Below are positions 4,300 to 38,600 of a stretch of DNA of 64,000 nucleotides, one piece after another. A program made the translations under genes and the position numbers. Position 1 is the stretch's first letter, and each line of letters opens with the position of its first letter. The notes beneath the pieces are model-generated. The model made no database searches. It was given only the letters and a program-made list of their open reading frames with translations, and was not told the DNA's origin. This DNA is from Cloeon dipterum (Eukaryota; Arthropoda; Insecta; Ephemeroptera; Baetidae): positions 41,623,681 through 41,687,680 of the forward strand of contig NC_088786.1 in assembly GCF_949628265.1 (NCBI RefSeq), in the 5' to 3' direction.

Positions 4300-6149
4300 A
4301 AAAGCCTGTGGCGCGCGTTTTGTTAAATTAAGCCTGAAAAATTGTGTTGATTTTATACTATGGAGGAGTCACTGATGATTACATTTTTTTGCATGGTAAG
4401 GTGTAATCCATACAGGTATTCTTCAATTTTGTAAGGTAAGCGATAAAATAATGGCCGTGAAAACCCCTGCAAGCAAGGATAACTTTAGGCTGACTATTAT
4501 TTGTTTTATCAATTAAAAATCTTTTATCAAGTTCTGCAATATTACCAGGATTCGCCAATTTTGCAAAGTGCAAAAGTTCACTACTGTTTTATTGCGCAAA
4601 AACTAGCTGGGGAAAAACCTGCAGAAGTTTGGGAGTTTTCCACATTTTAACGAATTTAGTTTCACTATTGCGCCAAAAACATTCAGAAATTTTGGAAAAT
4701 TACGATTCATGTTAAAATTTATGGTCTTTTGGCTAAACCATTGTGCTTTGATGCTGACTTTGTAAAAATCCCAATCTTCGGTTTTTGATATTTTGCGCAT
4801 TTTCCCGAAACACATTATTTATTCAAGATCAGAAATTCTAATGATGGATGACCAAAAAAGGGATTTGTTTTAATTTAAGATGAAATTCCACTTTTATTGT
4901 GTTAAATTAAAAAATATGAGGAAAACCTCAAAACCGGTGGTTTTCCAGCGTGTTTTGCGCATTGAAATATTGGCGAACCCTGGGGATAACCGGGGGGAGC
5001 GCTTCCGCAGGTTAAAAAATCGTTAGAGGGCAATTTTATTCGTAGAGTCCAAGTCTGACGTGGCCTTTTTATCTTGCAGTTGGTTACTGTTGGCTACCAC
5101 GAGCACTCTTCTTGGTTTCAACCTCTTTAAGGTTTGTAACGCACTGCCCGGTCTAGGGTTCGGGACTTGTGCTAGTGCGCTACACCGGTTAGCACTCTAG
5201 GTGCTTGCCGGATTTGGCCTTTCTGGACCGCGTGCCGCACTCCCGTGGGGCGGCAGCGTGTTCCCTAACTTAAGCTTGGGTTCGTCTGGACTCGACGACG
5301 CAAGCCGGACACTAACCAAGTCCTTCGCACTTGGGAGGATGGTTGTGTCCTCGGCCCTCCAACACTGCCTGAAGGGCAGTGCCAAAAGAGGAACTTTACG
5401 CAAATTGCAAATCCTAAGTCTAACTTGCAAATTAACTACAAATGAGAGATCTAGGATAATACAAACTACTCCTATTTGTTGGCACTCGGGTTTATTAAAA
5501 TCCACGTCCGCCTCACTCCGCGGCTCGCGTACAACTGCCCCCTCCTCACTCTTCGAGTGCAGGGAGGGGCGCATGAAAACATATAGTTCAGGGGAAATTA
5601 CAAAGATGCGCTGCAGGTTTTTTCAGTATAGTTGTTAACTTTACTAACGTTCGAGGACAAAATTAATACCGTTTTTGCGTGAAATTGAATAATTGATGGT
5701 TAAATAAGGGCGCTAAAAGAAGTTATTACAAGCTTAGCGCTCGATAAACTAAGCACACGCTTAGACATGGCTGTGAATTCGATTTGAGAGCCTTGCGAAT
5801 TTTACGCTGTGGTTTTTGTCTCGTTAATGTCGATTAGGCAGAGAAAACGGGATATTATAATGCTCTCGTTTCCCTTACGATTGCTGTGACAGCAGCAAAC
5901 CAAATTGTGTATGTATATATTCGGCTTTCCAAGCGAATTTCATAGACTCCTCTAATAAGCTTCCCCTCACACTTGCATTAATTCGGTCTCATTCAAAAGT
6001 TACACGCTCCCTCAACCAAATGCAACAATAACAAAATCTATACATTCCTTATTTCTCGTTACGGAGCCACGAAGAGCGAGCAAAACGACGTTTGGCGCGC
6101 ACTATTCTTTTTTTTCGTGATTTACGGTGGAATTTGTTATCTAACACCC
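4300..6149. other. AT-rich DNA with an unassigned GC-richer block
   Basis: Between 4600 and 5000 are short motifs (TTTTGCGCAT, AAAACC) that recur in the E2F introns and look like debris of one old repeat. From about 5040 to 5640 the DNA is GC-richer and open on both strands (145 codons plus, 125 codons minus). Neither translation has a recognisable domain, so I treat the block as probable repeat sequence. Confidence 0.4.
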
Positions 6150-7108: not shown

Positions 7109-8339
7109 ATGATGGATCGACCTAAGTTATCTACTGCCAATCTTGGTAAATTCGGCAAAACAAATGCAGACAAGTATTGAATTATATGACTGTAAAAGCG
7201 ATCATACAATTTTATATAAACAGCGTGTTCGTCCTCGTTGCACATTGGGACTTTAGAGATGCTGAAAAAACAGAAACAGTTAGATGGTCGGATCACCAAG
7301 ACGTACAAAATCTGAGAAATACGTTTGAGAAGAACCGTAACTGCCAATTCAGGGACATTTTGTCTCCGAAAAAAGAAATTTTGCTCAATCTTCTCGCTGA
7401 CGAAAATAAGCTCTTGCAACACTTCTCTTCTTACGGTACTGTAATCACAAAAGTGGCATTTATTTATATATAAATCGATTAATTATTCTTCATTTGTCCA
7501 GAATTACCATCAGTTTTCATTCTCATCATTCTATCGCACGGTGATGGACATGGAAAAATTTATACCGATCACTTGAAAGCGGAAAGTCGCAATTATGATA
7601 GCTTCACCACAACTGAGATATTTGAATCTATGAAAACTTCGACCGCTCTCGAGAGCTGCATCAAATTTGTTGTCAACAGCGTGAGTTTCAAATTTCTAGA
7701 TGCATTCGAAAGTAATTTTGATGCAAACATAACAGCCTTCGCAAGGTTGTTTCGACATCTCACCATTCGACAAAAGCTATTGGGAAAAGAAAAGCTCTTC
7801 ATGCACGCCGAAAATGTCAAATCTCTTTGTGTTTTTTGCAACCGTACAAGGTCAATTTAAAAAATATATTCCTTCCGAGAAAATGGTTAAAATAATTTTT
7901 AGGCTTTATAGAGGACATTGGAGACACTTGGACCGTGAAGGCGATTTGCGAAGTTTTCAACTCACTGGAAAAGAACGAACCGCTATCATCTGTGATAGCG
8001 AAGATTCAGGTTAAATTTTGTCACCTCGCCAAAATGAAAGCTTTCGATGTCGTATCATATACAAATCAAGTTAAAAAAGATCACAGTCTCATCATTTACG
8101 CTTCAAAGTATAATTTTACAATTGACTCCTTAAAGGGAAATTTAAAATTTTTGTCAAACAGTCTCAAGAGAAAACCAACCTGCAGATCACTCAGAAATAA
8201 ATCAAGTCACAAAACGGAAGCCAATGAGGATATCTACACTCGATATCTTAACGAGAATATTCTGGGGATCAAGGCTGATAAGGGAATATTATCAGCGTTC
8301 GTCATGGAAAACGATAGCCAGTCCGCATCATCATTATAA
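7109..8339 (+). CDS. Stand-alone caspase homologue with catalytic Cys replaced by Ser
   Basis: Five exons can be joined in phase: 7109-7173, 7224-7435, 7502-7680, 7736-7850 and 7903-8339, giving 335 residues. The order is that of a peptidase C14 domain: large-subunit strand VFVLVAHWDF, a helix rich in charged residues, the catalytic-His strand VFILIILSHGD (His105), then the active-site loop. Where active relatives have PCRG or QACRG, this protein has PSQG (Ser154), with a Cys three residues later. A small-subunit strand (NLFVFFATVQ) and helix follow. The tail of about 80 basic and polar residues is unlike a prodomain. An upstream exon equivalent to that of unit 2 is degenerate here (stop codon near 6860), so the start is set at the paired ATG codons; the reading frame is open further upstream to the acceptor. 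It is probably a pseudo-enzyme with a regulatory role (inference), or a gene in decay. Confidence 0.75.
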
Positions 8340-10053: not shown

Positions 10054-10847
10054 ATGCGTGAATTAATTTCACGAGAAGATTATCTAGCGTTACAATTCCA
10101 CGCGGTGAGGGCCGTCAAACTTATCAACGAGTTAGGGTTAGATATAAACGTAATCGATACGCTCTGTTAATTTGACAAAACATTTCTTTCAGATCATGAT
10201 TGCATTAATTAACAGTGTTTGGAAGCTAAGTACGAAAAAATATTACTATTGGTTACCAAAAACCACCCTCGGCATCGTGAAGGATCGACCTCAGTTACGT
10301 GCCAAGCTTGGTAAATTCGTCAAATCAACAAATGCAGACAAGTACTAAATTTTGTGACTATGTAAAATTTAAGTGATCATAATATTTTATATAAACAGCG
10401 TGTTCGTCCTCGTTGCTCATTGGGACTTTAGAGATGCTGAAAAAACAGAAACGGTTAGATGGTCGGATCACCAAGACGTACAAAATCTGAGAAATACGTT
10501 CGAGAAGAACCGTAACTGCCAATTCAGGGACATTTTGTCTCCGAAAAAAGAAATTTTGCTCAATCTTCTCGCTGACGAAAATAAGCTCTTGCAACACTTC
10601 TCTTCTTCCGGTACGGTACAAAAAAGATAATTAATAATAAAAATCGATTAATTATTCTTTATATCCAGAATTACCATCAGTTTTCATTCTCATCATTCTA
10701 TCGCACGGTGATGGACATGGAAAAATTTATACCGATCACTTCAAAGCAGACGGTCGCAATTATGATAGCTTCACTACGACCGAGATATTTAAATCCATGG
10801 AAACTGCCACTACTCTTGGAAGCTGCATCAAATTTGTTATCAACAGC
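10054..10847 (+). pseudogene. Truncated caspase homologue (large-subunit half only)
   Basis: Four phased exons are present: 10054-10104, 10193-10341, 10399-10610 and 10669-10847, encoding about 197 residues from MRELISREDY. The third exon is identical in protein sequence to that of unit 1 except for one residue at its end, so the duplication is recent. The catalytic-His motif LSHGD is intact. After the fourth exon the donor and the first bases of the intron match unit 1, but the exon with the active-site Cys and the whole small subunit are missing. They are replaced by unrelated AT-rich DNA with a LINE-like tail. The product cannot be a functional caspase. It could act as a decoy if expressed, but is most likely a broken copy. 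Its first exon gives the best view of the family's original N-terminus. Confidence 0.7.
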
Positions 10848-11968: not shown

Positions 11969-14900
11969 ATGACAGCAGGATTGGGATACTTTAAGACAGG
12001 ACTGAGGGAGCACAGGGCAGATAAGTATGCGTATATATTATTATTTCCTTAAATTCCTAAAAGTACCGTGTTCCTATATAATGGAAATTTAATTCATTTT
12101 CGCAGCGTTTTCGTCCTGGTCGTACAATACGACTTTATTAATGATCAGGATAGTCGAGAAGATGCCAGAAACGATATAAATAAATTGAAGGACACTTTCC
12201 ACAACAAAAGAAATTGCAAATTTCGCAACATATCTAAACCAAAAGATGAACTGCTCAGGCTTCTTTCTGACGCTACTAAATTGAAGGAACTCTTTGATTC
12301 AGAAGGTGGAATAACTTCAACGGAAAAATTCCACTTTATTATTAATAATTTTTATTTTTTAGGAAGCGTGCCCGATGTTTTCATTCTCTTTATTCTTTCA
12401 CACGGAGGAGAGGATGGAAAAATTCTTACAGATCATAAGGTCAATTCACAGTATGAAACCTTCACAACAAGGGAAGTTTTCGATAGCTTGCAAAATTTGA
12501 ATAAATATGAAAACTGTCTGAAAATGGTCGTATTTGGTGTGAGTTTTTATAATTTAAAATGCATAAATAGGTTTAAAAATATTTAAATTTTACAGCCATG
12601 CCGAGGACAATTGGAAGACTCCATTTGGAGGAAACCGTCATTCTTTGTGAACTTGTTCTACAGCTACAATAACCGAAATTCATGCAGAATTACGCGTGTT
12701 CCCAAATTGCACAACCTTGTTGTACTGTACTCAACAGTAGAAAGTAAATATTCTAATATTTACTAAGCATATCGAAAAATTTTAATCTTATCTATACGCC
12801 AGCCACATCAGCCGTGCGAGATAGCAATAAAGGATCGAGGATTGTTGATGTAATCTGCGACACATTCGACAAATTGAAATGCGATCAGCCTCTAATCTCT
12901 GTACTCACATTGGTGCAGTTCAATATGCACAAGCTTATGATCGAAAAATTGCAAGAAGGGAGTTTACAGGAAAAAAAAATATTTCAGACACCTGAAGTGA
13001 AAATGTCCTCGCAGACTAATAATTTCGTTGTTAAGTCACTCTATGAAGTTCAAAAGTAAGTTAACCACTTTGTGAATCTCTGCCATTTTTATGTCCGTAT
13101 ATGCATAAGAATACCTGAAACAATCCCTGAATCAAGTAAAGACGGATATTACGATTGGAGGGCAACAAGCGAACAATACATGCGAAGAGGACGAGGAATC
13201 ATTTTATACCAGGACAGCTTAGGTAAATTACTTCTTAATTTAGGTTACTGACATATATCACCCTGCTTAATCCTGCATTCTCATCTTAATATATATGTAT
13301 ACCTTATATACAAGTTGGAAACTGTTAAAAATGTTTCCGGATTTTTAGATGAAGAGATGGGAGCGATAGAACTTGCTCTCAAAAATAACCTTGGCGTCGA
13401 CTGCAGTCGCATGGATATCAAAAAGGAATTCAGCTACCAAGAACTTGAAAAAGGTGATTATTCAACCGCATTATTTTGTCCCCTCAAATTATTATTCTTG
13501 TTATATAGTGTTTAAGTGTCAAGATCAAAATTCCAATGTCGCGTTTTTCCTGGCATTCTTGTTCGGACGAGTGGATGAGGACCCAGAGACAAAGGAACTC
13601 TCCGTAGTTGTGAAGGAAAGATTTTTTATGAATCTATTCGAAAGGGAAAGAAGTGTCCCAATAGGAGGCCTTTTGTACGGACTCATAGGCCCCAGAAATG
13701 AAAAGCTGATTGGAAAACCCAAAATCCTATTTGTCATCGATCGACCAGCACCCGTGAGAGATGGATTACAGGAGATAAAGGCAAATATAAAACTTACAAC
13801 ATTTTTTCGATGAACATATCTGCGACTTCAATCAAAAGTCACAGCTTTTTGACCCATAAAAATTTATCGAAAATTATTTTGGCTTCAAAGAGGTTTATTC
13901 CTGATAAACAATTATTTCTGTTTCCAGGATCCTAATGAGCTGGACCATGTGGCCACTAATCATAGTGGCTGGCTAGTCTTCATTTTGCATGATACAGGTA
14001 AGCCCTAGTTGATTGAGTTCGCTATTTTTACAGTATGTACATATCCCTTTACATTGCAGTGAAGGTGAAGAGGTTGATCCATATTTTAAAGAGCGACAAA
14101 CTCAAAACAGACTGTCTGCAAAATTTGCTTGCGGATCTGCTTGTAAATCAAAACCAAGATCGCAATTTTTTAGATTCTACGCTCCAGTACAAAATGACCT
14201 TTCCGCACTTCACCGTCGAACCTGTCTTACAAGTTACGTACAATAGGGGCGAGAGAACGGAAAAAAGCTACCAGAACATTTTGGAAGAGGCATCACTGCA
14301 GGGATTGGGAAGAATTTGGCTGCTGAGTGCGGTCGCCGGAGCAGGAAAAACAGCCATGCTGAATAAACTTTCGATAGACATTCGCGATAAAATTGCGGAC
14401 AAAAAAATCCTTCTAGTGCAACTATCAAAGGTGTCGTCTTTCAACATCAGCAACCAAGACGCGGCGCTTTCAATAGTGAGTGCGTTCCTCGCAGATGCAA
14501 CGCAGAATTCTACCGATGAAGTGAAGAATTGGATTGAAAACAAAGAAGTTTTCGTGTTTATCGACGAGTACGACCATATCACGGAAACTATCAATCAAAA
14601 ATCTGTGTTGGAATTGATTGAGACTCTTGGACGTCATAAAATAGACGTTTGGATCGCCACGAGGCCCCACGGTGCGGCGTCGGTTCAGAAATATTTCCGA
14701 GCAAAGTCAGGAGATGGTGAAAGCCTCATAGTACTTCACATCAATCGTCTAAATGAAGACCAGCAAGCCAAAATCTTGCGCAAGTTGGGCATGTACGAGA
14801 AAAAGTGGAATTATTTTAAAGACATAAAGGACGGAAATATGGTTAACTTTTTGAAAAACCCAATGCACCTCACCGTTGCTGCACGACTCGATGATAGCGC

Positions 14901-15177
14901 AGATATCTGCGAGTTCCTCATTGATCATAAAATAAAACTATTTTTCCATAGGAAAGGCAACACAAACTGGACGCATAAAGAATATTACGATCTGATGAAA
15001 AATCTTTCTAAAATCTTTAACAGAAATATCAATGAACTGGAAGAAAATGATAAACAACTTATCAACGAGTTTGGCATCACGGATATCGACAGCGAAGGAG
15101 ACTTGAAGTACTCTTTTCAGAGTTTCTTTGACTGCTTTCAATCAAACAAAGACGTTGACTGGAGCGAAAGAGCTTAA
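11969..15177 (+). CDS. Caspase - pseudocaspase - STAND (NACHT-like) NTPase fusion
   Basis: Ten exons join in phase (11969-12024, 12106-12305, 12363-12538, 12596-12743, 12803-13055, 13110-13222, 13349-13453, 13509-13753, 13928-13997, 14060-15177) to give 827 residues. Residues 19-250 form a caspase domain with His99 in LSHGG and Cys146 in GPCRGQ, 47 residues apart as in caspases. The small-subunit strand LVVLYSTVE follows. Residues 280-515 repeat the fold (RGIILYQD, VAFFLAFLFGR, KPKILFVIDRPAP, GWLVFILHDT), but FGR stands where SHG should be and no Cys is present, so this half is a pseudocaspase. The large last exon carries a P-loop NTPase: Walker A AVAGAGKT (546-553), Walker B VFVFIDEYD (619-627), the sensor-type motif WIATRP (653-658) and NPMHL. 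These are features of arthropod STAND/NACHT-like proteins. It ends soon after, without a repeat sensor domain. Expected role: a nucleotide-switched protease in cell death or immunity (inference). The ATG used lies 8 bases inside the first exon; an upstream exon is possible. Confidence 0.85.
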
Positions 15178-31346: not shown

Positions 31347-32469
31347 TCAACAAGGGGTTGCCCAGGGTTTCAAGGTGGCGAATGTCAGGAAGCCCGAGTG
31401 GCCAGGGATCGAGGCGCAGGGTAGGCTCGTCAGGTACCGCTCTTGCTCCTCACTTCCAGCCTAGATTTAATTTTAATTCAAAAATAAAATTCTGGAGATC
31501 TGAATGAGCGACAAACCCACCAGATTGAGCTTGCCGTGCGTCCTGTACTGGACGCTGAGCTCCTTGCAGAGGCACTCGATTGTCTCCGTCTCGAAAAAAT
31601 CGTTTTTTAAAAGCGCCTCCTTCGTCCGCACCACCTGCTCCACGCACGGAGAAAATATAGCTATCCTTCCACCTGTAAAAAAATTAAAAATCAACCGAAA
31701 TAAAATTTTAAACCAACTCGTACCTGGACGAAGAGCCTTTCTGGCGTGTCCGATGGCGTCCCAGGGACACGGCAGGTCGAGGAAAACGGCGTCGACCGAC
31801 GCGGCGTCGACAGGGTCGAAGCCCAGGGCGCAGACGTCTCTGTGCGCCACCCTGACGAGCGGCTCCTTGTAGCCATGCAGGGCAAACTCCTGCCGGGCGG
31901 CGTCGGCGCGGCCCTCGTGGAAGTCGAACGTGTGCAGCTCTCCGTCCGGCTTCACCGTCCGCAGGATCGAGTGGGACAGAGACCCGCTTCCCGTGCCTGA
32001 ATTTAAAAAATGAATATTCAGGGGAATAACCCTCAGGGCCGGTGCGACTGCGACGGACCTGCTTCGACGACCTTGCAGCCGGGACGCAGTTCGAGTTGAG
32101 CGACGATGAGGGAAATGTCTGGAGTGTACAGAATTTGCGTCCGGTGCGGCAGGCACTGCGTCCAAAGGTCGCAGGTGGGCGCCAGCACCAGGGCCCAGCC
32201 CTTGGACAGGGCCACCTTGGTGCCGTACCGCTGGCCCTCGAGCTCGGACACCCGCAGCGCGCCGTAAACTGTCTGGAAAATGTTGTCAACCAAATTGCCC
32301 TTCTTGTTCGTCATCTGCGAACGGGAAAATGGTCCAATTACAGATCTCGACCGGTCATTCGACGGCTCACCTTGGGCTCCACCTGAAGCGGGAAGATGGA
32401 GGTCACCGACAGGTAGAGGATGACCGTGTCCCCGCGCTCGATTTTCGTCTTGAACTCGGGGAAACTCAT
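31347..32469 (-). CDS. TRMT61A: tRNA (adenine58-N1)-methyltransferase catalytic subunit
   Basis: Five exons on the minus strand: 32371-32469, 32059-32314, 31724-31996, 31521-31672 and 31347-31460; 297 residues, the usual length for the family. It starts MSFPEFKTKIERGD, a typical N-terminus for this enzyme. The Rossmann fold is complete: SAM-binding VVEAGTGSGSLSHS, acidic strand end ELHTFDFHEGRA, the motif IV-like VDAVFLDLPCPWDAI, and GGRIAIFSPCVEQV. The C-terminus is GHSGFLTFATLKPW. With TRMT6 it forms the nuclear complex that makes m1A58 in the T-loop of tRNA, including initiator tRNA. It is convergent with Rumi and divergent from archease (579 bases between start codons). Confidence 0.94.
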
Positions 32470-35638: not shown

Positions 35639-38600
35639 ATGCCGCGCGTGAGCCAAGCCCCGGGCCACAGTGCGCCGGCCGCCGAGCCCGGGGCCTCGAC
35701 GTCGGCGACCACGACGTACCTGCCGAGTCCGTCGTACATGCTCGACCACGAGTACAGCCAGACGCCGCAGAACCAGATGCTGAAGCCCCGCAGCGCCACG
35801 GCGGCGCCGCCGCTGCGTCAGGACGCCCGCCCCGTCGTCGACATCGAGGTACGCAGCCGTAAATCGTAGCCAGAAACCGCACGCTTGCACTTCTTGCCGG
35901 GTGAAATTTCCGTAAATTTGATTGGTGAATGGTTTATTCATTGGATTGTGATTCGACCAATTGTAATTCGACCGAATTTCAGCCGACGAGAGGTGCAACA
36001 GCTTCGCACTCAGTAGATTTAGATTTTAGGCTTGCTTCGTTTGCTGTGCGTTTGAATCGTTAACAAATTTCTTCCTGGTCGCTTAATAGCCTAAGACAAT
36101 TGTGTCACAGCAAGTGAAACGCCGGCTCAACCTCGAGGGCACGCCCCCCTCCTCATCCCCCGATTCGGGCTTCAAGGCGCCCAAGGCGAAGAAGCCTCGC
36201 ACTTCGGCCGCCAGCACTTCCTCCACGCCCAGCCCCAAACGTGAGTCATTTCTTTTGGACAAATGGGAATTTATGCGTTGAGATAATCAAAAAAATGACT
36301 GGAATCCAACCCGAGAAGGCAGCGCCACAGCGGCAGCCAGCGTAACTAAATTGCTCGATAGTTTCTCAAGCGGCCGTGGCGCTGCAGCCTGGATCTGGCT
36401 GTAGTGCCTGTGAGCCAATCGGAGAGCACTTTCTGATTGGCTCGGACCAAGACGGGCTGAGAACCGAGAAGGCAGCGCCACAGCGGCAGCCAGCGTAACT
36501 AAATAGCATGCTCGATCTGGTCGTGAGCCAATCAGAGAGCTTCCGGGTTCCGGGTGCAAACGTGGCGCTTTCTGATTGGAACTTCCGGTTTTCAGGAAAT
36601 TCATTCGTCAGTAGTTGTTGCCTTTTCTAGAAATAAAAACCGGCAAGGCATGATTCTCTACTAACAAAAATCCTTTTAACAATATATATATACAATAATT
36701 TTTATTTCAGCGCCATTTGCTTTAAAACCATGTTTTTTTCTCCCGTGTTTTTTCGCAGCGGCGCGGGCGGAAAAGACGCGTTACGACACGTCGTTGGGCC
36801 TGCTGACCAAGAAATTCCTGAACCTGCTGCAGACGTCCCCGGACGGCGTGATCGACCTGAATAAGGCGTCGGAGCACCTGAGCGTGCAGAAGCGGCGCAT
36901 CTACGACATCACCAATGTCCTGGAGGGGATCGGCATCTTGGAGAAAAAGTCGAAAAACAACATCCAGTGGAAGGGCGGGTGCGAAGGCGCGCCAGACGGT
37001 CCTTCGGCCGCGTCGCAGCTCCAGTCGGAGCTGATCGGTCTCGAGCAAGACGAGCTCAACCTCGACTCGCTGATCGAGAAGGCAAAGACGGAGCTGCTGG
37101 TTCTCTCGGAGGACACGCGGCTCGCCTACGTCACCTACCAGGACCTGAGGAACCTGGCCGGCCTCCAGCAGCAGACCGTGCTTGCTATAAAGGCCCCGCC
37201 AGAGGCTGAGCTCAACGTTCCTGAGGTATCTCACAATTTTTTTTATGAAAAAAAAAATGTTAGGACGCAAAGCACAATATAGAGAGTTGGTCACGAAAGT
37301 CCTAAAGTCAAAAGACAATAATACACCTTTATCCAATATAATACATCTTGCATCTCTGGCTGCGTGCAGAGGCAAGAAAGAACGGAGAACTAAGGAGAGT
37401 AAAGGCTTACTCTCCTTTGAATTCACGAGAGTAGGGTCTAAGGACAGCAATCTCCTTAGTACGTTCCTGGTGGCCGCAAAATTTGCGCAGCTTTCAACAA
37501 CCAAACGCAAGCAAAAGGGCAAAAAGTGAAACAATGACAATTTGGTAAATGTTGAGAAGTTGCGCAATTTTAACGCTGCCTGGACACGGCACTAAATCTC
37601 TAGTCCGGGCGGAAAAGCAAAGAAAGGTAATCTCTTAAAAAAAATTGAAAAAAAATGGAAAAAAATGTGTTTTGATTTAATTTTGGGCTTCGGTCAGGAC
37701 TGATTTCGCCAGAAGGCGAAGTTGCCCGAGGACGTGGCCCTTACGTTGAGTAACCTATATTCCCCCCCCCCCCCCCATTGGTTAATCGTAAGTTTGTAAG
37801 TAGACCTCGGCGCGGTGTGAAAAAATAATTGGAACCTAAATAGTGGTTTTTCCTCTAAATTCGCTAAAAAACTCAACTTAAAATCTAGCATCATTTTAAA
37901 GTGGAGGTTATAAAAGATCACCTAAATTAAAATATTTAGATTTTCCGTAAACCTCAGCCGAGGAAGCAGGAAACGCTAAAAGGTGTAATTCCTGAATTGC
38001 AAATTAAAACCAAGTCGTATTACAATGAGCAAAATGAATTTGGATTCAGACGGGAAATCCGAACTGATGAAAGAAAACTTTTCTGAAGTAATTAATTCCT
38101 CTGCAATGTCTTTAATTATTTAGAAAAAGTCGAGAAGTGAATAGCAGATTAGTTCAACGAGAAGAGAATTTGATTCTAATTATTTTATCACTTTTCGTCG
38201 TAATGTTTGCAATTTAGTTAGCGTTTTTACGTGGAACCACTCGCCGCGAGCGCCACTTTGGTCAGCAAACTGCCGACTTTCAACCAGAGCGTCCATCGTG
38301 CCAGCATGTTTTCGGGAATAATCGCATTCGGAGCAGTTGTTACATTAGTCTCTTAATTTTGTAAATCAGTTCCAGGCGAATTCATGAATTCATCGACGTT
38401 CAAATTTCTAGGTGACACTTGATATTAAACCAACTAGGAGAAATCATTCCACGTTTGAAGCTCAGGTACGGAAAACGCTAAAACTCGAATTTTTCCGGGA
38501 TAAGTATTTTATGCTGCATAAATAACTCATGAATATTTATTTTAAATTTAACGCTTTACATCCAAATTTTTGTAAAATAAGTTTTATTCAGTTGCGTAGT

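Follow-up and report, generated by a model that had tools for sequence, protein, structure and literature searches.

A gene on the forward strand of a 64,000-nucleotide stretch of the Cloeon dipterum genome (hereafter the window; gene at 11969-15177, +) encodes in a single chain an active-type caspase domain, a second caspase-like domain that appears to have lost its catalytic dyad, and a NACHT NTPase. We show herein that this arrangement, noticed in an earlier note on this DNA from a copy without the tail, is not a unique fusion but recurs in a large gene family of the same genome, the other checked members of which carry ankyrin repeats downstream. The window gene probably belongs to a large family of NLR-like receptors equipped with their own effector, as a divergent member that is shortened at its C terminus. 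From N to C terminus, a typical member consists of an active-type caspase followed by a likely pseudocaspase, then a NACHT domain with a winged helix, and finally an ankyrin-repeat tail.

Ten exons placed by hand yield a protein of 827 amino acids (aa) with zero internal stops, and all nine introns of this model have GT-AG ends and compatible phases. When the 827-aa protein was used as the query of a spliced protein-to-DNA aligner from which the splice sites were withheld, the identical ten exons were obtained. The G+C content is 41% in the exons and 28% in the introns. Introns were compared with those of 20 related loci and counted as common if they lay within 6 alignment columns and had the same phase. 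By this measure, introns 1-9 are common to 20, 20, 20, 20, 20, 0, 17, 11 and 20 of the 20 loci, respectively; six of the nine are thus common to all, including intron 5, which lies in the linker that joins one caspase domain to the other, and intron 9, which precedes the NACHT exon. That these two introns occur in the same place and phase in all 20 relatives speaks for a single gene.

Intron 2 (12306-12362) is 57 nucleotides long, in frame and stop-free, such that a transcript retaining it would encode 19 additional residues ahead of the catalytic His; an intron is found at this place in 20/20 relatives. No tandem repeats were found between positions 5000 and 20000 of the window.

The family was delineated in a genome of 190 Mb in ten contigs, five of which are 33 to 43 Mb long. 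With the NACHT domain of a typical relative as the query (E up to 1e-6), 110 matches were obtained, which merged into 106 places, a figure that includes fragments as well as some distant matches of doubtful standing. These 110 NACHT rows were tallied with 85 middle-domain and 94 caspase rows, the last two sets being hand-picked, mostly one per place, out of 204 and 228 matches of which a part was listed. On the same strand, at least 84 of the 106 NACHT places are preceded by a middle-domain match at a distance of up to 6 kb, at least 88 by a caspase match at up to 9 kb, and at least 77 by both. The last figure is a lower bound, since the window gene itself was counted as being without a middle-domain match; similarly, two divergent places, L029 and L030, are without such a match in the tally, yet carry the complete order when modelled. 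Twenty loci, a sample biased toward good or caspase-bearing matches, were fetched together with these two, and the order caspase, pseudocaspase, NACHT was recovered in one spliced model in 22/22. Spliced alignment with the window protein scored 895-1046 in the 20 loci, versus no more than 111 for shuffled queries on these loci (80 runs); for L029 and L030, where relatives served as the query, the scores were 937 and 799. Small exons that the aligner placed after the NACHT exon in 15 of the 20 loci were regarded as artefacts and removed, and the NACHT exon was then extended in frame until a stop codon or the locus end was reached. An alignment of 21 members, the window copy included, was used below, and the profile of the active-type domain was built from 12 of them. 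In the middle domain, the window copy shares 31-41% identity with 20 relatives; in the caspase domain, its identity to 11 relatives is 43-48%.

The N-terminal domain matches Pfam Peptidase_C14 (PF00656) over residues 25-268 (E 1.3e-17; 64.8 bits vs a curated cut-off of 21.4). Its LSHG and GPCRG motifs are present in all 21 aligned members, and the earlier reading of an active-type caspase with His and Cys motifs was borne out accordingly. An Arg at the likely substrate-pocket place is likewise found in every member; a second pocket-type Arg occurs in 13 of the 21, and the window copy has one. The 12-member profile retrieves caspase-3 with an E of 1.2e-9, and the mean column identity of the domain among these 12 is 59%. 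Judging from these sequence features, members of the family may well be active proteases.

The middle domain, taken here as residues 290-512 (280-515 in the earlier note), matched no Pfam family in the window protein. A profile built from the 21 members, when compared with the PDB (E up to 10), gave 84 matches; the 60 listed were all caspases, the best at an E of 9.2e-6, and caspase-8 was among the matches. When the members were scanned singly (E up to 1), Pfam C14 was found in the middle domain of seven of the 21 (best E 1.7e-5), with unrelated families matching up to six members in the same scan (best 0.0024). The columns that would hold the catalytic His (452, 453 or 454, according to our own alignment and the two HMMER alignments to caspases) contain no His in 21/21 members, and the column that would hold the Cys (524) contains no Cys in 21/21; this loss of the dyad depends on the alignment, and HMMER supports the Cys site, one of its alignments agreeing with our own placement. 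Nearby, Cys is common at 445 (20/21) and 449, and His occurs at 523 in two rows. The stretches at the two catalytic places are like CVLTCIFGQVSE and GKPKIFFIVDQ. The middle domain is likely a pseudocaspase on the grounds of its sequence, the small-subunit half being unproven. Of the C14-like fold without His and Cys proposed earlier, the absence of the dyad held for every aligned member, whereas the fold rests on the family profile and concerns the large-subunit half.

The C-terminal NTPase matches Pfam NACHT (PF05729) over residues 547-697 (E 1.6e-7; 31.7 bits vs a curated cut-off of 26.7), which supports the earlier claim that a STAND NTPase is joined to the caspase in one chain. The GK of Walker A, both Asp residues of Walker B, and the TRP triplet are kept in all 21 aligned members. 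The profile comparison that the earlier note had suggested thus matched C14 and NACHT; in the Pfam list of the window protein (E up to 10), neither NB-ARC nor CARD, death-fold, DED (in the middle domain or elsewhere) or WD40 domains appeared, and HMMER filters drop most Pfam matches above about 0.1. A sub-threshold NB-ARC match was seen in one relative, L010 (E 0.0036), and an NB-ARC profile found two places in the whole genome, both within NACHT genes of the family; this genome search was carried out exon by exon and says nothing on whether Dark is missing. The apoptosome-like character claimed earlier did not hold, because the NTPase is NACHT rather than the NB-ARC of Apaf-1/Dark, and no CARD or WD40 was listed. 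Membership of the apoptosome was rejected on these grounds, and "NLR with its own protease" fits better as a description than "apoptosome".

The window copy differs from its relatives at the C terminus. Of 11 relatives scanned with Pfam (E 0.01), a subset of the 22 modelled loci, 10 carry ankyrin repeats within the open frame of the NACHT domain or in the part by which this frame was extended; LRRs were seen in none. In L025 (4462-6920, +), the NACHT frame of 430 aa has no ankyrin repeat, and matches to the ankyrin tail follow directly after it in another frame; possible causes are a shift of frame within the gene, an intron missing from the model or a fault in the assembly. In the window copy, the protein stops nine residues beyond the aligned winged-helix stretch. 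When the tails of 19 relatives (that of L025, under 900 aa, excluded) were compared with the whole window, 63 matches were obtained at E up to 10, the best at 0.31, and no ankyrin remnant was found. The winged-helix motif of the relatives is like F-L-H-Q-T-F-A-E-F-L-A-A-Q, with the His in 20/21 members; the window copy reads YSFQSFFDCFQSN and is the sole member in which this His is replaced, by F. In NLRs, the winged-helix His helps hold the closed ADP state. The accessible part of one review describes ADP as closing the NACHT subdomains and names no histidine (PMC9520476).

Several results weigh against the interpretation of the window gene as a receptor of this kind, and some of them feed rival explanations. 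Compared singly with the PDB by phmmer, the window caspase domain gave a weak best match (E 0.0016) and the NACHT exon retrieved no STAND protein, and structure prediction of exon 10 alone was uninformative (mean predicted local distance difference test score, pLDDT, 41.5). The window's own middle domain is not among the seven with a Pfam C14 match, and the family profile matches caspases over the large-subunit half only. A short NACHT frame is also not unique to the window copy, as 12 other of the 110 NACHT rows are under 450 aa, several of these being fragments. The window copy forms the longest branch in 3/3 domain trees (1.13, 1.63 and 2.34 changes/site for the caspase, middle and NACHT domains, respectively), the caspase part thus being the best kept, and long branches together with truncation are also expected from decay. 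The window copy might therefore be a decaying, non-functional relic, that is, a full-length member that lost its tail and is drifting. In keeping with this, its divergence is worst in the NACHT domain, both the tail and the winged-helix His are gone, its two caspase neighbours on the upstream side are incomplete or devoid of the Cys, and the frame change in L025 indicates that decay occurs in the family. However, 827 stop-free codons extend over ten exons with nine usable splice pairs, and the catalytic and nucleotide-binding motifs are intact despite the low identity to relatives. The relatives are too divergent for any claim from the ratio of non-synonymous to synonymous changes. On balance, we regard a relic as rather unlikely. 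That two or three adjacent genes (a caspase; a pseudocaspase plus NACHT) were wrongly joined is far less credible still. The intron of the gene model between exons 6 and 7 has no counterpart in the 20 relatives, but the linker and pre-NACHT introns recur in place and phase in all 20, and one spliced model spans the three domains in every one of the 22 loci. The possibility of separate genes, for which the earlier note had proposed a check, was rejected on the basis of these common linker introns.

Two further alternatives concern the roles of the caspase domains. The active-type domain might be no working protease at all, its SHG and PCRG being structural and the protein signalling by scaffolding. 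GPCRG indeed differs from the QACXG pentapeptide given as the caspase motif in the accessible part of PMC2575513, and the divergent relative L030 has GPCRS; however, LSHG and GPCRG remain invariant in the 21 members while much of the domain varies, and the pocket Arg is just as constant, so that we consider this explanation improbable. Less easily set aside, and assigned an appreciable if minor share of our belief, is the view that the middle domain serves as an oligomerisation or docking module, or as an inhibitor of the active domain, in an adaptor-like position between effector and NACHT. The small-subunit half of a caspase is where the dimer surface would lie; in the family, this half has no caspase match, yet holds strictly conserved residues such as HSGWL. 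Nor does the middle domain show direct profile similarity to the active domain in the same proteins: the two profiles did not match in hhalign, local or global, and HMMER cross-matching did no better than controls made by shuffling and reversal, which makes a recent tandem duplication an unlikely origin of the two domains. On the other hand, the large-subunit half of the profile matches caspases, among them caspase-8, and FLIP(L) provides an example of a dead caspase fold that acts as an activating partner (PMC7586951, accessible part).

If the interpretation as a receptor with its own effector is correct, members of the family might work as follows. The ankyrin tail would sense a signal or restrain the protein; upon its release, the NACHT domain would swap its nucleotide and oligomerise, and the oligomer would cluster the N-terminal caspases, leading to their activation by proximity. 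The pseudocaspase would most likely act in cis as the other half of a caspase dimer, giving one active site per protomer. The built-in dimer partner proposed in the earlier note is an analogy with FLIP(L)/caspase-8 and is plausible, since the pseudo-caspase domain of FLIP(L) pairs with procaspase-8 to form an enzyme with one active site, as described in the accessible part of PMC7586951. Lacking both the tail and the winged-helix His, the window copy should act without a sensor of its own. It might be weakly autoactive, or it might be a helper or amplifier recruited into the oligomers of full-length relatives. A bolder and quite tentative proposal, which we consider possible rather than probable, is that the family represents a new class of innate receptors in animals, each combining a sensor, a STAND switch, an initiator protease and its dead dimer partner in one chain and together numbering about a hundred genes in one genome, with the window gene as a sensor-less executor without the winged-helix lock that either fires by itself or amplifies the oligomers of its relatives.

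The exons and motifs of the window gene are listed in Table 1.

Table 1. Exons and motifs of the window gene and their occurrence among family members
Feature	Position in window	Strand	Residues	Occurrence
Exon 1: start codon	11969..12024	+	1-18	intron 1 common to 20/20 loci
Exon 2: active-type caspase begins; Arg	12106..12305	+	Arg 36	Arg in 21/21 members
Exon 3: active-type caspase, LSHG	12363..12538	+		LSHG 21/21
LSHG with catalytic-type His (exon 3)	12395-12406	+	97-100	
Exon 4: catalytic-type Cys	12596..12743	+		GPCRG 21/21
GPCRG, split across exons 3/4	12536-12607	+	144-148	
Exon 5: small-subunit-like part of active-type caspase; linker begins	12803..13055	+		intron 5: 20/20
Exon 6: linker; pseudocaspase begins	13110..13222	+		following intron: 0/20 relatives
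Exon 7: pseudocaspase	13349..13453	+		intron 7 common to 17/20
Exon 8: pseudocaspase stretches at the His/Cys places, FLFGRVDE and GKPKILFVIDRP (13712-13747)	13509..13753	+		
Exon 9: pseudocaspase, NHSGWLV (13958-13978)	13928..13997	+		intron 9: 20/20
Exon 10: pseudocaspase end, NACHT NTPase, degenerate winged-helix end, stop codon	14060..15177	+		
Walker A, AVAGAGKT (exon 10)	14329-14352	+	546-553	
Walker B, FIDEYD (exon 10)	14557-14574	+	622-627	
ATRP (exon 10)	14656-14667	+	655-658	
Winged-helix end (exon 10)	15121-15138	+		

Upstream of the window gene lies a lone caspase-like gene of the family (7112-8339, +), with a spliced reading of 7133-8132 that runs onward to a stop at 8339. It keeps SHGD and has SQG in place of the family's CRG, so that the catalytic Cys is gone; no NACHT match was found between it and the next copy, and it is possibly an intact stand-alone pseudocaspase. 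A second copy of this upstream gene (10295-10847, +) is truncated to the large-subunit exons. Its DNA identity with 7224-7680 is 98% in exon 2 and 90% in exon 3, which suggests a probably recent local duplication; by eye, the stretches that precede the two copies (about 6550 and 9330) seem to be duplicated as well. Neighbouring open frames at about 31473-32310 (-) and 36680-37209 (+) resemble, by eye, a tRNA methyltransferase of the TRMT61 type and an E2F transcription factor, respectively, and sit in a stretch of higher G+C.

Elsewhere in the genome, the family clusters on two large contigs, with 51 of the 106 NACHT places on C4 and 34 on C2 (clusters at C4:29.3-36.1 Mb and G000:C2:0.79-4.7 Mb), and the window copy lies apart on C1. 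Strong Pfam caspase clusters at G000:C5:27147932-27160033 and C4:1033374-1039141, away from the NACHT places, are apparently ordinary caspases. Viral contigs searched with each caspase-domain profile gave pattern matches only, none of which was confirmed, and a pattern-based scan of an 84,980-species prokaryote collection with the active-domain profile confirmed no relative of the caspase domain. Prokaryotic contamination was rejected by the introns, the conserved gene structure, the 43-Mb contig and 94 matches in the genome to Chitin_bind_4, an arthropod-type cuticle family. Five matches were to 7tm_6, the odorant-receptor family of insects, in keeping with an arthropod and probably insect genome; a search for six units of the telomere repeat TTAGG gave no match.

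Animal death platforms are understood to be assembled from separate proteins joined by death-fold adaptors, and a receptor family with a caspase and pseudocaspase of its own would be a case of an animal bypassing the adaptor step. It would also make the FLIP-type idea of a dead partner testable in one chain, at a fixed stoichiometry, and the window copy, as the sole one of 21 without the winged-helix His, offers a natural test of the need for a sensor. In addition, the family bears on published claims, as far as the accessible parts of the sources go: that Drosophila and C. elegans lack NACHT (PMC2575513), and that arthropod NLRs are without an N-terminal effector domain, according to a 2024 survey (PMC11508797). 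A survey of arthropod immune genes has neither NACHT nor NLR in its main text (PMC4833078). As the earlier note had supposed for arthropods, no caspase-pseudocaspase-NACHT protein was found in the titles and abstract openings listed by searches of the open-licence PMC literature; other arthropods may well have copies that are unannotated or unpublished.

Among known systems, metazoan NLRs share with the family the NACHT NTPase, a large clustered gene family and, in the relatives, a His-containing winged-helix motif as well as repeats that form a C-terminal tail. They differ in that the N-terminal effector of the family is the caspase itself rather than a recruiting CARD, PYD or death domain, and in that its repeats are ankyrin instead of LRR. 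The window protein, being tail-less, retains NACHT alone among the NLR hallmarks, with no LRR tail, no death-fold N-terminus (CARD, PYD, DD or DED) and no winged-helix His. The apoptosome, formed by Apaf-1, Dark or CED-4 with caspase-9, Dronc or CED-3, likewise uses a STAND switch that clusters an initiator-type caspase; it is unlike the window protein, which has NACHT and not NB-ARC, no CARD or WD40 listed, and a caspase joined to the switch within a single chain. FLIP(L) and caspase-8 place a dead caspase fold beside an active one, as the family probably does, and caspase-8 is one of the proteins matched by the middle-domain profile. However, FLIP(L) is a separate protein joined via DEDs, as the accessible part of PMC7586951 has it, whereas the window protein is one chain with no DED. 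Amphioxus hybrid immune genes, which include TNFR-caspase, LRR-caspase, TIR-NACHT and death-NACHT, are further examples in an animal of sensors or switches fused directly to effector or connector domains, but in the accessible part of that source, supplementary lists aside, no caspase-NACHT fusion or pseudocaspase is named (PMC2575513). Bacterial caspase-STAND fusions resemble the family in having an N-terminal caspase effector and a STAND module in one polypeptide, and belong to conflict systems (PMC8195603, accessible part); the window gene differs from them in its animal-type caspase, its introns and the pseudocaspase between effector and switch. Thus, the receptor type itself is known, and what appears to be new here is a STAND receptor whose built-in effector consists of a caspase and a pseudocaspase, in an animal and in greatly expanded form.

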